Positions 21,633 to 60,438 of a stretch of 64,000 nucleotides of DNA are shown here, piece after piece; position 1 is the first letter of the stretch, and the number at the start of each line of letters is the position of its first letter. Both the position numbers and the translations under genes were made by a program. The notes under the pieces were generated by a model. It ran no database searches. It saw nothing but the letters and a program-made list of their open reading frames with translations, and was not told the origin of the DNA. Origin of the DNA: Acholeplasmatales bacterium. GTDB taxonomy: Bacteria; Bacillota_I; Bacilli_A; Acholeplasmatales; Anaeroplasmataceae. Location of the stretch: positions 1 to 64,000 of the forward strand of contig JAFXXC010000029.1 of NCBI GenBank assembly GCA_017542485.1. The letters are read 5' to 3'.

Positions 21633-22665
21633 ATATATTAATAAATTCTTTTACTTTTTCAATTGGTATTGTATAACCTCTTATAAATTCATCAGAAGTA
21701 CTAACGCTTGATGCGAAATTTATTCCGACAAGTTCAAGATTGAAATTGAATAATCCGCCACCACTAGAACCATTATTTAATTCTGATGAGTGAGTTAATA
21801 CATCAAATGATACATTTGATTTATCTTTTGTTTCCTCTTTAGGTGTAAATGTTTTAGTACCAGTTATTTCACCAAAGCTTATTGCATTTGTTAAGCTTTT
21901 TGGATTTCCTAAAGAGAAGACTTTATATGATTCACTAGAGTTAGCCATTTTAGCTACTTCAAGAGTTTTTGAACCTTTTGTAAATTTAAGAAGTGCTAAA
22001 TCATATTCAGGCTTATTTCCAATTAATTCACTTCTAAGTGTAGAATCTTCTTGAGGGTCACCATATACATTACTATAACAATCATAAATATGATATTCAA
22101 CATTTTTATATTTTGAAGAATCGTAGTATACTACGTGATTATTAGTTAATGCATAATAATAATTATCATCTTCATCAAAGATAACTCCAGAACCAATAGA
22201 ATCACTATATGATTGTCTTATAAAACCATTTGTATAAGCATATGTTTCGACTTTTATACAAGACTTTATTGTATTTTTATAAATGTAATTTACTAGGCTT
22301 TCGTAATCATATTCCCATCTAGCAGTTAATATAATATCTGAATTAATTGATTTATTGAAATCAAATAATTCATTATTGTAATACCATCCTACAAAATAAG
22401 CAAAATTTTTAGTTGGATCATCTGGTTTAATTACATGATTTGATTTGTTAGTATTTGTTGTAATTTTATTGCCATCACCAAAATCAAATATTACTTGATA
22501 TCCATCAGGATTGTTAGGATTTGGAACCGAATAACTTATTGTTGAACCAGTATAAGTCCTTTTTGATGTTATTGTCATTGTAGTTGTAGGATTAAATGTT
22601 ATACTACATGCTGAAAGGGTAAAAGATATGAGTACTAATAGTATCAAATATTTTAATTTTTTCAT
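21613..22665 (-). CDS. Secreted lipoprotein with trypsin-like (S1C) serine protease domain
   Basis: 350 residues. The start at 22665 has AGGTGA before it; the GTG at 22674 lies inside that ribosome site. The lipoprotein signal is KYLILLVLISFTLSAC with the lipid Cys in LSAC. Residues about 55-115 form one InlB-type module (VGWYYNNELFDF...ILTARWEY). The protease domain has His in TNNHVV, Asp in YDLALLKF and Ser in NGSSGGGLF, a complete HtrA-like triad. No PDZ domain follows. It probably sits on the outer face of the membrane, with the InlB module as a spacer or binding part. Confidence 0.9.
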   Translation of the reverse strand: MKKLKYLILLVLISFTLSACSITFNPTTTMTITSKRTYTGSTISYSVPNPNNPDGYQVIFDFGDGNKITTNTNKSNHVIKPDDPTKNFAYFVGWYYNNELFDFNKSINSDIILTARWEYDYESLVNYIYKNTIKSCIKVETYAYTNGFIRQSYSDSIGSGVIFDEDDNYYYALTNNHVVYYDSSKYKNVEYHIYDCYSNVYGDPQEDSTLRSELIGNKPEYDLALLKFTKGSKTLEVAKMANSSESYKVFSLGNPKSLTNAISFGEITGTKTFTPKEETKDKSNVSFDVLTHSSELNNGSSGGGLFNFNLELVGINFASSVSTSDEFIRGYTIPIEKVKEFINIYKNKSS

Positions 22666-53471: not shown

Positions 53472-55295
53472 TTAAGCACCTGTATTAGTTCCCATATCCT
53501 CATATTGAATATTTTCAACTCTAATACTTGCGTTTCTAGTTGCCATAAATCCTGCATAAATATAATCAGCATCAACAGCAGTTAATGCATAATCAGTAAA
53601 TGTTTGAGTCATTTCAGTTCCGCTATCACCGATTTTAACCTTGAAAATCATATTTTGACCATTTTGTTCTAATGATAAATAATATACAGTACCTGGATTA
53701 ACATCAGCGAGTAATGTAGCAGAACCAGCTGTTGATATAGCACGATTATATCTACTGAAGAATGCTTTATCCTTTAAATATCCACAAGCACCAAAGTTAG
53801 AATTTAATGTTTGGTTAGCTGCAGTAACATTTATAAAGCAATCATCTCTTAGCATTAAACCGAATGCTGATTGTGAATTATCTTTAGGTTTTGTTAATAC
53901 TGTAACTTTCGCACTTAATTTAAAGTTTTGATTAGCAGGTAATTGTCTAAATAAGAATGCGAAACCATCGCCCTTTGATTCCATCTTACCTTTATCATTT
54001 GAAGCACCAACCTCATAAACGCCAGTAGAAGTTTCCTTTGCGAAGAAATCATTTGTATTTTTAGCATTTAAATTACCAAATGCAGTACCATACCAATCAG
54101 GAGAAGTTGTTGCAAAATTAGCGCTTGGTGTATAGCTTGATAAATTTGGAGATTCATATCTAGTCCATTTATATTCAGAATATTTTCCTAAAATATCAGC
54201 TTTTGGTTTTTCAGTACCATTCTTAGCATAATATTTTAAATTTGAATTAGTATTTTGTAGGTGCTTTGCGAATTCATATGCTACAAAATTAGCACCATAA
54301 TAATTGATGTGTGTTCCATCAAATGCATCCCAGTTTGGATCAGCACCCTCTGAATCATCAGTTCCAGATGTGATAGCATGGAATTTTTTTGCCTCATCAA
54401 AGCCTAAAGCTGTATATTCATTCTTTGTAATAGTAGTTAAATCTACAAATGGAATTTCATATTTAGTTGCGACAGCCTCAACTGCGGCTCTATAATCACC
54501 ACAATATGTTTTAACACCAGTATCCTTATCCTCATGTGTATAATTGTGACCATTATTTTTGGAATAATCATTCTTAGAATCTAATCTTACAATTGGTGAT
54601 ACTAAAATTGGGAATGCTCCCTTATCGATAGCAAGTTTCACATATTTATCATAAATAGTGTATTGAAAAGAGTTTTCATCAGCTAGTGCTAAATCAATTG
54701 AACCATAATTGGCATTTCTAAAAGTATTAGTTCCATATTTCTCATCATTATGTCCCCAACCAATGATTAAATAATCTCCAGATTTAATAGATGTTTTTAG
54801 CGTATTATAATTTGACTCTGATAAAAAACTTTTTGAACTTCTTCCAGATAATGCTAAATTGTTGAATGTTACATAATTTGTATCAAAATAGTTACTCATT
54901 TGAGTTCCATAACCATATCTAGGATAATAATATGAATCAAGTGGGGAATAATTACACATTGTTGAGTCCCCAACCATAAAAACAGTTGTTTGAGTTTTAG
55001 TATATGTATTAGGTTCAACTTCTATTTGATCTTTTACAACAATTTGAGTTGCTGTAGTAGTTGTGGTAGTTGTAGTAGTTGTGGTAGTTGTAGGAGTAGT
55101 TGTTTGTGCTGTTGTACTTGTTATAGTAGGATTAGTTGTAGTGCCAGTTGTAGTTGTAACTTCTGTTGTTGATGTAGAAGTATTAACATTAGAAGTAGAA
55201 ACTATAGATGATGTTGATGTTCCTGCATTTGCTCCACATGAAGCTAATCCAAATAATGCTAATAAAGATGTACTACCTAGTAATATTTTTTTCAT
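53472..55295 (-). CDS. Secreted lipoprotein: poly-Thr linker, SGNH esterase domain, lectin-like C-terminus
   Basis: 607 residues. The lipoprotein signal MKKILLGSTSLLALFGLASC has lipobox LASC. Residues about 25-85 are a Thr/Ser linker with an almost pure Thr run. The SGNH/GDSL domain covers about 105-345. It is like rhamnogalacturonan acetylesterases: nucleophile Ser in FMVGDSTMCN, Gly in LALSGRSSKS, Asn in GWGHNDEKYG, and the Asp/His pair in FDGTHINYYGA. The last 220 residues are a beta-sandwich-like domain (FGLMLRDDCF, IYAGFMATRNASIRVENIQYED) resembling carbohydrate-binding laminin-G-type folds. It probably removes acetyl groups from plant or host polysaccharides at the cell surface. Confidence 0.9.
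   Translation of the reverse strand: MKKILLGSTSLLALFGLASCGANAGTSTSSIVSTSNVNTSTSTTEVTTTTGTTTNPTITSTTAQTTTPTTTTTTTTTTTTTATQIVVKDQIEVEPNTYTKTQTTVFMVGDSTMCNYSPLDSYYYPRYGYGTQMSNYFDTNYVTFNNLALSGRSSKSFLSESNYNTLKTSIKSGDYLIIGWGHNDEKYGTNTFRNANYGSIDLALADENSFQYTIYDKYVKLAIDKGAFPILVSPIVRLDSKNDYSKNNGHNYTHEDKDTGVKTYCGDYRAAVEAVATKYEIPFVDLTTITKNEYTALGFDEAKKFHAITSGTDDSEGADPNWDAFDGTHINYYGANFVAYEFAKHLQNTNSNLKYYAKNGTEKPKADILGKYSEYKWTRYESPNLSSYTPSANFATTSPDWYGTAFGNLNAKNTNDFFAKETSTGVYEVGASNDKGKMESKGDGFAFLFRQLPANQNFKLSAKVTVLTKPKDNSQSAFGLMLRDDCFINVTAANQTLNSNFGACGYLKDKAFFSRYNRAISTAGSATLLADVNPGTVYYLSLEQNGQNMIFKVKIGDSGTEMTQTFTDYALTAVDADYIYAGFMATRNASIRVENIQYEDMGTNTGA
55045..55165. repeat. Low-complexity Thr-codon repeat in the SGNH lipoprotein linker
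   Basis: On the plus strand the segment is built from GTAGTT, GTGGTA and related hexamers, which are ACT/ACA/ACC (Thr) codons on the minus strand. Mixed synonymous codons break perfect periodicity. The array could still gain or lose whole codons and so change linker length. Confidence 0.8.
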
Positions 55296-58082: not shown

Positions 58083-58093
58083 GGAGGTTAATT

Positions 58094-59146
58094 ATGAATT
58101 ACATATTAATTGAGAATAAAATTGAAGAATTTAAGGATATTAAAATATTAGGTGAAACATTATCTGATATTTGTAGTAAATTTGGTAATGTAATTTATGA
58201 TAAAAAAAATATTCAAGGTGAGGGATATACAGTTATTATTCCTAATAATGTATATTTTATTGACAATAGTTCTATTGATGAAGTTGTTGAATATTATAAA
58301 ATGAGAAAATTCGGGTTTACTTATGTATCAAAGGATAGTAGTAAGCTTGGTATATATGTAGTTGATAATTCAATAATTAATGAAGATTTTTATAAACTTA
58401 TTGGTAGTAATACTAATTCATGTTTTTTAAGTAATAAGTTTTATATGTTTAATGATTTTTATGAATTGTCTATTGTTGAGGATGAAATTAGAAAAATTAT
58501 AAATAAGAAGCATATGATAAATGGTGTTAGGATTGAAAATCAAAATAGTGTTATTATTGGTAAAAATGTTGTTTTAGAATCTGGTTCTTATATTAAAGAG
58601 GGAACAAGTATTTTAGGTGATAGCAAAATTGAAAAGGGCGCTATTGTTGGACCATATAGTGAATTATTAAATGCTTATGTTGGAGAGAATGCTTTGGTAA
58701 GACAAAGTGTTGTTTATGATTCAAAAGTATTAAGTGGTGCACAGGTTGGACCATTTACTCATTTAAGAATGAACACAACTATAGGAGAAAATGATAGAAT
58801 TGGTAATTTTGTTGAGATAAAAAATTCTACTATTGGAAGAAAGACTAATGTTTCACATTTAACTTATGTTGGTGATACTGATTGTGGTAGTGGAGTTAAT
58901 TTTGGATGTGGTACTGTTACTGTAAATTATGATGGTAAGAATAAATTTAGGTGTAAGATTGGAGATAATGTATTTATAGGATGTAATTCTAATTTAATTG
59001 CCCCAATTACACTTGATGATGGCGCATTTATCGCGGCTGGATCAACAATTACTGATAGTCTAGAAAAAGATGATTTTGCGATAGCAAGATGTAAACAAGT
59101 TACTAAAAAAGCATATGCTAAGAAATTCGGATATAAGAAGGTATAA
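58094..59146 (+). CDS. GlmU-like acetyltransferase with reduced N-terminal domain
   Basis: 350 residues. The C-terminal 200 residues are a left-handed beta-helix matching the GlmU acetyltransferase domain, with IGNFVEIKNSTIG, the catalytic His255 in SHLTYVGD, VNYDGKNKF and AAGSTIT. It would acetylate glucosamine-1-phosphate with acetyl-CoA. The first 140 residues lack the LAAGxGTRM signature of the uridylyltransferase domain that normally occupies 230 residues, so UDP-GlcNAc formation must be done by another protein. It directly precedes glmM, supporting the role in amino-sugar synthesis. GGAGG precedes the start. Confidence 0.88.
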   Translation: MNYILIENKIEEFKDIKILGETLSDICSKFGNVIYDKKNIQGEGYTVIIPNNVYFIDNSSIDEVVEYYKMRKFGFTYVSKDSSKLGIYVVDNSIINEDFYKLIGSNTNSCFLSNKFYMFNDFYELSIVEDEIRKIINKKHMINGVRIENQNSVIIGKNVVLESGSYIKEGTSILGDSKIEKGAIVGPYSELLNAYVGENALVRQSVVYDSKVLSGAQVGPFTHLRMNTTIGENDRIGNFVEIKNSTIGRKTNVSHLTYVGDTDCGSGVNFGCGTVTVNYDGKNKFRCKIGDNVFIGCNSNLIAPITLDDGAFIAAGSTITDSLEKDDFAIARCKQVTKKAYAKKFGYKKV

Positions 59147-59148
59147 AT

Positions 59149-60438
59149 ATGAAGTATTTTGGAACTGATGGTATTAGAGGAGTACCTAACGAAAAGTTGA
59201 CAGTTGATTTGGTTACAAAGCTAGGTGCCGCATTAAAAGAACTTGGTAATAAAAAGGTTGTTTTAGCAACAGACACTAGATTATCTAAAGATATGCTTGC
59301 TAGTGCTATTTCTTGTGGTGCATTGGCAAATGGATTAGATGTATTGTATATTGGAGTTGTACCTACGCCTGCATTAATATATTATTCTTATACACATAAA
59401 ATGACTGGTGTTATGATTACAGCAAGTCATAATCCATATACTGATAATGGCATTAAGGTTTTAAAATGTGGTAAAAAGTTATCTGAAGAAGATGAATTAA
59501 AGGTAGAAAATGCAATTGATAATCCTAAAAAACATACTGGTGAGATCGGTAAATATACCGTAGATTTAAATGCTAAAGAAGAATATGTTGAATTTGTTAA
59601 GAAGGATTTAGTAAAAACAAATTTAAGAATTGTTTTAGATTGCGCTAATGGTGCAACTTTTGAAACTGCAGGTATGGTATTTAATGATATTACAACTAAT
59701 TTGGTAATTACTTGCAATACACCTGATGGATATAATATCAATAATGGTTGTGGTTCTACTCATTTAGAATTGTTAAAGAAGAATGTTATAGATAATAAAG
59801 CAGATTTAGGTTTCGCTTTTGATGGTGATGGAGATAGAGTACTCGCTATTGATAAGAACGGAAATACTATAGATGGTGATATGCTAATTTATATATTAGC
59901 TAGATATCTAAAAAGTAAGAATAAACTAAATAATGGTAAGATTGCTCTATCTATGATGAGTAATCTAGGTTTAATTAAATCTTTAAATAATTTTGGTATT
60001 GATGTAATTGAAACTAATGTTGGAGATAAGTATATTGTTAAAGCATTATTTGATAACAATTTATCTGTAGGTGGAGAAAATAGTGGTCATATTATATTAC
60101 CATATATTTTTCATACTGGAGATGGAGTATTGGTTGCTAAAGAGATTGTTAAGATTTTAACAGAAACTAATACAACATTTAGTGATTGGTTAGACGATGT
60201 TAAAATGTATGCTGATAAGATGGTTAATATCAAAGTTAAGGATAAGAGTAAAGTTTTAGGAAATAAAGCATTATTTGATAGAATTGATAGTATAAAAAAA
60301 GAACTTAATGGAGATTGTAAAATAATTGTTAGAGCATCAGGTACAGAGGATTTAATTAGAGTATCAGTTATGGCAAAGGATAATGATTTAGTTTCAAAAT
60401 ATAGTGATGAGTTAGTTGGTATTGTAAATAATATTTAG
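59149..60438 (+). CDS. glmM: Phosphoglucosamine mutase
   Basis: 429 residues. FGTDGIRGVPNEKLT at the start, catalytic Ser in MITASHNPYTDNGIKV, metal loop in FAFDGDGDRVLAID, sugar loop GGENSGHII and phosphate loop VRASGTEDLIRV. It converts glucosamine-6-phosphate to the 1-phosphate used by the preceding gene product. It starts 2 bases after that gene. A few residues shorter than most GlmM. Confidence 0.96.
   Translation: MKYFGTDGIRGVPNEKLTVDLVTKLGAALKELGNKKVVLATDTRLSKDMLASAISCGALANGLDVLYIGVVPTPALIYYSYTHKMTGVMITASHNPYTDNGIKVLKCGKKLSEEDELKVENAIDNPKKHTGEIGKYTVDLNAKEEYVEFVKKDLVKTNLRIVLDCANGATFETAGMVFNDITTNLVITCNTPDGYNINNGCGSTHLELLKKNVIDNKADLGFAFDGDGDRVLAIDKNGNTIDGDMLIYILARYLKSKNKLNNGKIALSMMSNLGLIKSLNNFGIDVIETNVGDKYIVKALFDNNLSVGGENSGHIILPYIFHTGDGVLVAKEIVKILTETNTTFSDWLDDVKMYADKMVNIKVKDKSKVLGNKALFDRIDSIKKELNGDCKIIVRASGTEDLIRVSVMAKDNDLVSKYSDELVGIVNNI

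Follow-up and report, generated by a model that had tools for sequence, protein, structure and literature searches.

GlmU occurs widely among bacteria and has been studied as an antibacterial target. The window analyzed here, a 64,000-nucleotide stretch from an Acholeplasmatales genome that is 75.3% complete, holds a gene whose product resembles the acetyltransferase half of GlmU, and it raises the question of what became of the uridylyltransferase half and which protein makes UDP-GlcNAc in its place. The initial annotation had described a GlmU-like protein without the uridylyltransferase signature, paired with glmM, and had proposed that the two activities are split, with another protein making UDP-GlcNAc. 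G and L numbers below are our labels for genomes and loci, G000 being the window's own genome.

The pairing with glmM holds. The frame opens with ATG and closes with TAA, and glmM begins 2 nt downstream, at 59149 (Table 1); it matched NCBIfam TIGR01455 at 1.9e-128 and 428.9 bits, which does not reach the cut-off of 447.55. The orthologous gene at L002 is likewise preceded by GGAGG. Residues 116–343 of the window protein matched the NCBIfam GlmU model at 1.9e-80, with residue 116 falling on model position 220 and the match running to the model's end. In the two GlmU models (the GlmU entries are TIGR01173 and PRK14354), the matched part begins at positions 220 and 223, and the scores were below both cut-offs (270.6 vs 450 bits in one case, 245.4 vs 366.85 bits in the other), which places the protein outside bifunctional GlmU by curated NCBIfam score. 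Elsewhere in the window, the minus strand at 53472–55295 encodes a protein resembling a lipoprotein: its signal peptide is followed by a long threonine-rich stretch and then by an esterase-like part (function assigned by eye).

Table 1. Features of the GlmU-like gene and its immediate surroundings in the window.
Feature	Positions	Strand	Basis
GGAGG, ribosome-binding-like site, 6 nt before ATG	58083..58087	+	Read from sequence
GlmU derivative, acetyltransferase domain only, 350 aa; positions include the stop codon	58094..59146	+	ORF call, GlmU profile match
Probable shrunken remnant of uridylyltransferase domain, residues 1-118, landmark residues gone	58094..58447	+	Pfam, alignments, model
Probable remnant of the core strand carrying Asp105 in intact GlmU, residues 45-56 (YTVIIPNNVYFI), Asp now Asn	58226..58261	+	Alignments, hhalign
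Alpha-helical linker between the two GlmU domains, residues 122-142	58457..58519	+	Model secondary structure
Left-handed beta-helix, predicted GlcN-1-P acetyltransferase domain, residues 146-343	58529..59122	+	Pfam/NCBIfam/PDB matches; model pLDDT
His255, catalytic base position	58856..58858	+	Alignment
Cys272, aligns with S. aureus GlmU C379	58907..58909	+	Alignment
Cys297, aligns with S. aureus GlmU C404	58982..58984	+	Alignment
glmM, phosphoglucosamine mutase, 2 nt 3' of the GlmU derivative	59149..60438	+	NCBIfam TIGR01455

The acetyltransferase half is complete in its landmarks, as had been claimed on the strength of His255 and an NYDG motif. Both lie where they were placed (the latter as N278-Y-D-G281), and all 13 landmark residues are present in an alignment of 14 GlmU rows. 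In E. coli numbering, these are R333, E349, K351, H363, Y366, N377, A/C380, N386, Y387, K392, S/C405, A423, and R440; His255 corresponds to His363, and positions 380 and 405 are both Cys in the window protein. Hexapep Pfam matches identify a left-handed beta-helix, which was modeled with high confidence (pLDDT 90–99 in blocks 141–330) and aligned by VIA-align with 3twd, a GlmU C-terminal construct, at Z 31.9 and an rmsd of 1.5 over 221 residues. The structure model used here is the second, built from 59 sequences (pLDDT 80.4); the earlier one, built from 12, was poor (60.5). These features suggest that the protein acetylates GlcN-1-P with acetyl-CoA. Its best PDB sequence match was S. aureus GlmU (9dqf, 9dr4), at 3.3e-57 over window residues 118–343, in which C379 and C404 correspond to C272 and C297 of the window protein; both cysteines are invariant across 59 aligned GlmUs. 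This Bacillales-type pair, kept in the window acetyltransferase, is reported in PMC11947611 as a redox-sensitive switch in S. aureus. The same source places the S. aureus linker at 229–251 and describes a complete uridylyltransferase domain of 228 residues, which the window protein does not have.

The N-terminal region is short, although by about 104 residues relative to GlmU in the model alignment, and not by the roughly 90 first estimated. No NTP-transferase Pfam model was among the matches of the window protein at E<=1. The uridylyltransferase signature (LAAGxGTRM with Lys25) and the further landmarks Q76, Q79, G81-T82, D105, E154, N169, and N227, all in E. coli numbering, are not preserved as a set, so the missing signature noted at the outset stands. 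In the 14-row alignment, the window protein and its L002 orthologue have gaps at the LAAGxGTRM motif, Lys25, Gln76, Gln79, Gly81-Thr82, and Glu154, while Asn occupies the Asp105 position and Lys the Asn169 position. At the Asn227 position the window protein keeps Asn and L002 has Ser; that position and a Gly aligned with G171 are all that is left of these landmarks in the window protein.

What remains of the domain is most likely a worn-down uridylyltransferase rather than a new domain. The segment GYTVIIPNNVYF of the stub aligns with the GYSLILPGDTPL strand of an intact relative (L003), and hhalign matched residues 35–78 to the corresponding part of intact domains at E 0.002, with a probability of only 14%. 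The second AlphaFold model shows the stub as a diminished alpha/beta layer, with strands and helices, at pLDDT of about 39–70; since this part was guided by intact GlmU rows and is of low confidence, its likeness to GlmU is no independent evidence. VIA-align matches to full GlmU chains mostly start at model residue 28, the first residues, of low confidence, having been excluded. The 59-row alignment behind the model omits 21 of 76 further full-length GlmU rows, picked by eye, as well as L036, which the motif pattern missed though its signature is nearly intact. The sole remaining role of the stub is probably in folding or stability. That the uridylyltransferase half has been lost is well supported, by its landmark residues, by relatives in which it decayed separately, and by an orthologue with the same architecture.

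That orthologue comes from genome G011, on a contig from another metagenome assembly labeled Acholeplasmatales. It encodes the same architecture in 349 aa and is 67% identical to the window protein over residues 1–350. A tblastn search with five intact N-domains against the window, contig C47 of the same genome, and two smaller stretches of it found no detached N-terminal piece nearby. It hit RmlA on C47, at best with E 6e-5, and what is left of the core in the gene itself, at E 0.004 and 0.012. A further match within the gene, at E 0.31, is within noise, with the best unrelated match at E 0.27. A misassembled N-terminus, which the initial annotation had named as a possible refutation, or a frameshift hiding an intact one was rejected on the strength of the orthologue and of the absence of the lost piece from the tblastn results.

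Between the window gene and L002, NG86 omega was 0.36 for residues 1–115 (bootstrap 95% 0.17–0.68) and 0.16 for residues 146–350 (0.08–0.25), at a dS of 0.9–1.6, which is near saturation. Selection on the acetyltransferase is therefore clear, and on the stub it is weaker. The N-terminal part is also A+T-richer (GC 0.21 vs 0.29). Its composition and faster evolution could be those of a pseudogene being lost, as in the species of family f1 that show no GlmU (25 of 36 genomes, incomplete ones included). However, a frame open in two species, the full set of acetyltransferase residues, and the low omega in the beta-helix make a pseudogene very unlikely.

The organism seems, from its gene content, still to need UDP-GlcNAc. 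On C47, glmS is followed by 4,6-dehydratase-, aminotransferase-, polyprenyl glycosylphosphotransferase-, UDP-GlcNAc 2-epimerase-, and UDP-GlcNAc 6-dehydrogenase-like genes. GlmS and the 2-epimerase (wecB) scored over their cut-offs; the UDP-GlcNAc 4,6-dehydratase- and dehydrogenase-like proteins fell below their specific NCBIfam cut-offs, and their substrates are presumptive. This cluster would give the GlmU derivative a use even though no MurG or high-scoring MurA was found in its own genome. Curated cut-offs were passed by MurG in none of the 60 relatives and by MurA in one, and presence was read from the gap in bit scores (120 or more for MurG; 276 or more vs 109 or less for MurA, the lower ones read as AroA). 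By these thresholds, nine genomes have both murA- and murG-like genes, a mixed presence among relatives that recalls what PMC10868615 says of Anaeroplasmataceae. Four of the nine lack the GlmU uridylyltransferase domain (G005, G007, G021, and G031), and all of these except G005, which is 78% complete, carry the stand-alone nucleotidyltransferase described below.

In G000, G011, and G004, MurG gave no match and MurA none above 250 bits, and one might suppose that the wall has been lost, that UDP-GlcNAc is no longer needed, and that the acetyltransferase is kept for another acceptor. We regard this as highly improbable, given the UDP-GlcNAc-type 2-epimerase, dehydratase-like, and dehydrogenase-like genes that follow glmS on C47. 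Wall loss was rejected as the whole explanation, since G031 has a truncated GlmU yet carries murA- and murG-like genes and the window's genome has apparent UDP-GlcNAc users.

Which protein, then, would make UDP-GlcNAc? A search of the window's genome for a second GlmU or another pyrophosphorylase, suggested in the initial annotation, returned a single GlmU place and, with PF00483 and PF12804, two RmlA and one IspD (named by eye), in an assembly 75% complete. Both rmlA copies are followed immediately by rmlC- and rmlD-like genes, and ispD is followed by an IspF-like gene. C47 further encodes a cytidylyltransferase-like protein whose PseF score does not reach the cut-off. PF01704, for the eukaryote-type pyrophosphorylase, had no match in 60 genomes, which shows little, as it had none in 14 controls either. 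C47 (L129, L130) also carries, by eye, two near-duplicate rmlABCD-type sets within one polysaccharide cluster, at contig positions 22597–25961, 38111–40461, and 44776–45795.

PF00483 picked out nothing in the genome but the two near-identical RmlA, which leaves room for a promiscuous sugar-1-phosphate nucleotidyltransferase, such as one RmlA copy, to supply UDP-GlcNAc while the activities are split. PMC8040287 describes the use of E. coli GalU with NahK for UDP-GlcNAc in vitro. Nevertheless, the position of each rmlA is that of ordinary dTDP-rhamnose synthesis, and with a quarter of the genome unassembled, a promiscuous enzyme in this role seems unlikely to us. That same quarter could instead hold an intact GlmU or other pyrophosphorylase, the window copy being a specialized paralogue. 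G060 offers a parallel: one of its copies, beside glmM, is decayed, and another, elsewhere, is a full-length GlmU. This, too, we consider rather unlikely: G000, G011, and G031 (97% complete) show one GlmU place each, and the window copy adjoins glmM, as do the GlmUs, decayed or intact, of L002, L003, L014, and G031.

The relatives add a pattern of repeated decay that the initial annotation had not foreseen. GlmU, called at E<=1e-15 over at least 220 residues, is present in 31 of 60 relatives (11 of the 36 from family f1, 20 of the 24 others). L014 (409 aa) and the GlmU of G031 (374 aa, another genus) have lost the same uridylyltransferase residues. In G004 they are partly gone, by substitutions; its domain is still above the PF12804 cut-off (48.7 bits), and its uridylyltransferase is presumably inactive. 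Its tree neighbor G015 keeps most of the signature. This close pair (L105 in G004, L107 in G015), one decayed by substitution and one mostly intact, perhaps shows an early stage of decay.

In a tree of 39 acetyltransferase domains (L083, the same as L003, was dropped), the window and G011 proteins (100/98) are sister to intact L003 with decayed L014 (98/88), and the four group together at 96/74. G031 falls outside this group on a long branch (81/77), a weak placement, and G004 with G015 in another place (89/96). The intact GlmUs of G016 (L003; G016 is in the window's genus and G031 is not) and of G015 thus fall among decayed ones. Since intact GlmUs lie between decayed ones and regain of the domain is unlikely, we count at least two independent losses, and probably four. 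Four takes all forms at face value; two (window with G011, and G031) treats L014 as a problem of its metagenome-assembled genome and G004 as partly decayed. In that genome, G060, the decayed GlmU (L014:5773-6999) sits beside glmM near rml-type genes and the full-length one (L145:1342-2649) on another contig, as either a paralogue or bin contamination.

The best candidate for the missing activity is a stand-alone nucleotidyltransferase of about 300 aa, in which AAGMGSRxGGLKQ, KPxGTxxA, and INxDDxYG are conserved across 16 aligned members. Its sole relative among solved structures is 3pnn, which covers residues 3–296 of the 299 of the G007 member at 1e-67. Of the 60 genomes, 19 carry the family, every one of them in f1; it also occurs in Bacteroidota and Clostridia records, and no relative was found in viral contigs. 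Among the 21 genomes of f1 with a completeness of 90% or more, at any contamination and with the domain called by PF12804 in a GlmU frame, it was carried by 13 of the 15 without a GlmU uridylyltransferase domain (G001, G007, G008, G010, G012, G013, G018, G019, G021, G023, G029, G031, and G035) and by one of the six with it (Fisher p 0.0055, shared ancestry ignored). The two exceptions without the domain are G003 and G033 (91 and 94% complete). Of those with it, G015 has the 3pnn-family protein and G014, G016, G028, G032, and G034 do not. GlmU is truncated or decayed in four f1 genomes, and three of these carry the nucleotidyltransferase as well (G004, G011, and G031, not G000). G007, which is 97% complete and has murA- and murG-like genes, has no GlmU, and its three PF00483 proteins are an RmlA, one of GlgC length, and the 3pnn-family protein.

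Gene neighborhoods suggest a substrate. An N-acetylhexosamine 1-kinase gene lies directly 3' of the nucleotidyltransferase in three of 26 loci, those of G031, Subdoligranulum variabile, and Hymenobacter tibetensis. Against solved N-acetylhexosamine 1-kinases (NahK), the kinase of G031 gives a match at 1.6e-129; the other two are 38–45% identical to it. No such kinase was found in the fetched flanks of the other 23 loci, several of which adjoin, by eye, polysaccharide-type genes. Because a kinase making N-acetylhexosamine-1-phosphate adjoins the nucleotidyltransferase in three distant lineages, the family may use GlcNAc-1-P or GalNAc-1-P. It could also be a UDP-glucose enzyme replacing GalU; the PF00483 survey covered 12 genomes. 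In G031, two long frames (L121:1854-4529 and L122:3-2012) join, by eye, helix-turn-helix-like and nucleotidyltransferase parts; one contains two nucleotidyltransferase matches and a kinase-like part, the other a permease-like part.

Consequently, we consider it likely that the window protein descends from a GlmU that lost its GlcNAc-1-P uridylyltransferase and kept its GlcN-1-P N-acetyltransferase, that the 3pnn-family protein is its likeliest partner, and that such decay is recurrent. GlmS, whose gene was found, would make GlcN-6-P, and GlmM, encoded by the adjacent gene, GlcN-1-P. The window beta-helix enzyme, a trimer if GlmU-like, would acetylate GlcN-1-P with acetyl-CoA to GlcNAc-1-P, which a separate protein would join to UTP. 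The likeliest joining enzyme is the 3pnn-family nucleotidyltransferase, found in the sister genome G011 and in most near-complete relatives without the GlmU domain; with it present, the GlmU uridylyltransferase half would be redundant and could have decayed more than once. The proposal that another protein makes UDP-GlcNAc is thus partly supported, being strengthened by the apparent UDP-GlcNAc-using genes of the same genome and by these relatives. No 3pnn-family gene was found in the window's own assembly at 75% completeness, nor was one located by way of its neighbor in G011, a Sel1-repeat-like protein. G015, with both enzyme types, and G060, with its additional full-length GlmU on another contig, also stand against this pathway. 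A broader account would have a stand-alone 3pnn-family N-acetylhexosamine-1-phosphate uridylyltransferase take over in f1, the GlmU domain decaying in at least two, probably four, lineages with graded intermediates surviving, and the whole gene being lost later elsewhere; we judge the case for it to be evenly balanced.

Compared with GlmU, the window protein shares the beta-helix acetyltransferase with its active-site residues, the helical linker, the glmM neighbor, and the cysteine pair, and differs in its shorter N-terminus, absent uridylyltransferase residues, and scores below both cut-offs. G007 has a 200-aa hexapeptide protein (L125:4081-4680), a lone acetyltransferase-type beta-helix beside glmM, presumably in the same pathway arrangement. 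It belongs to another acetyltransferase lineage, being closest to the C-terminal part of archaeal-type GlmU (TIGR03992, 1.5e-41), and is apparently another replacement acetyltransferase. PDB 3pnn, titled "Conserved domain protein," and the kinase-linked nucleotidyltransferases are kin of the proposed partner, not of the window protein. Literature searches pairing 3PNN with nucleotidyltransferase, in which no tested substrate surfaced, and GlmU with Anaeroplasmataceae found no reports; for split or degenerate GlmU and N-acetylhexosamine kinases, we recognized no report of the present case among the matches listed.

Similar gaps have been noted before. The relevant passages of PMC7301438 describe two RF39/RFN20 genomes without UDP-GlcNAc synthesis genes but with later steps, and those of PMC7725333 note genomes without GlmU that nonetheless contain UDP-GlcNAc derivatives. 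If the 3pnn family does form UDP-GlcNAc, it would help fill the latter gap. A lineage that keeps one half of GlmU while its relatives stand at graded stages of decay offers a natural experiment in how a gene fusion is undone, and it points to an uncharacterized nucleotidyltransferase family as a likely UDP-GlcNAc-forming enzyme.
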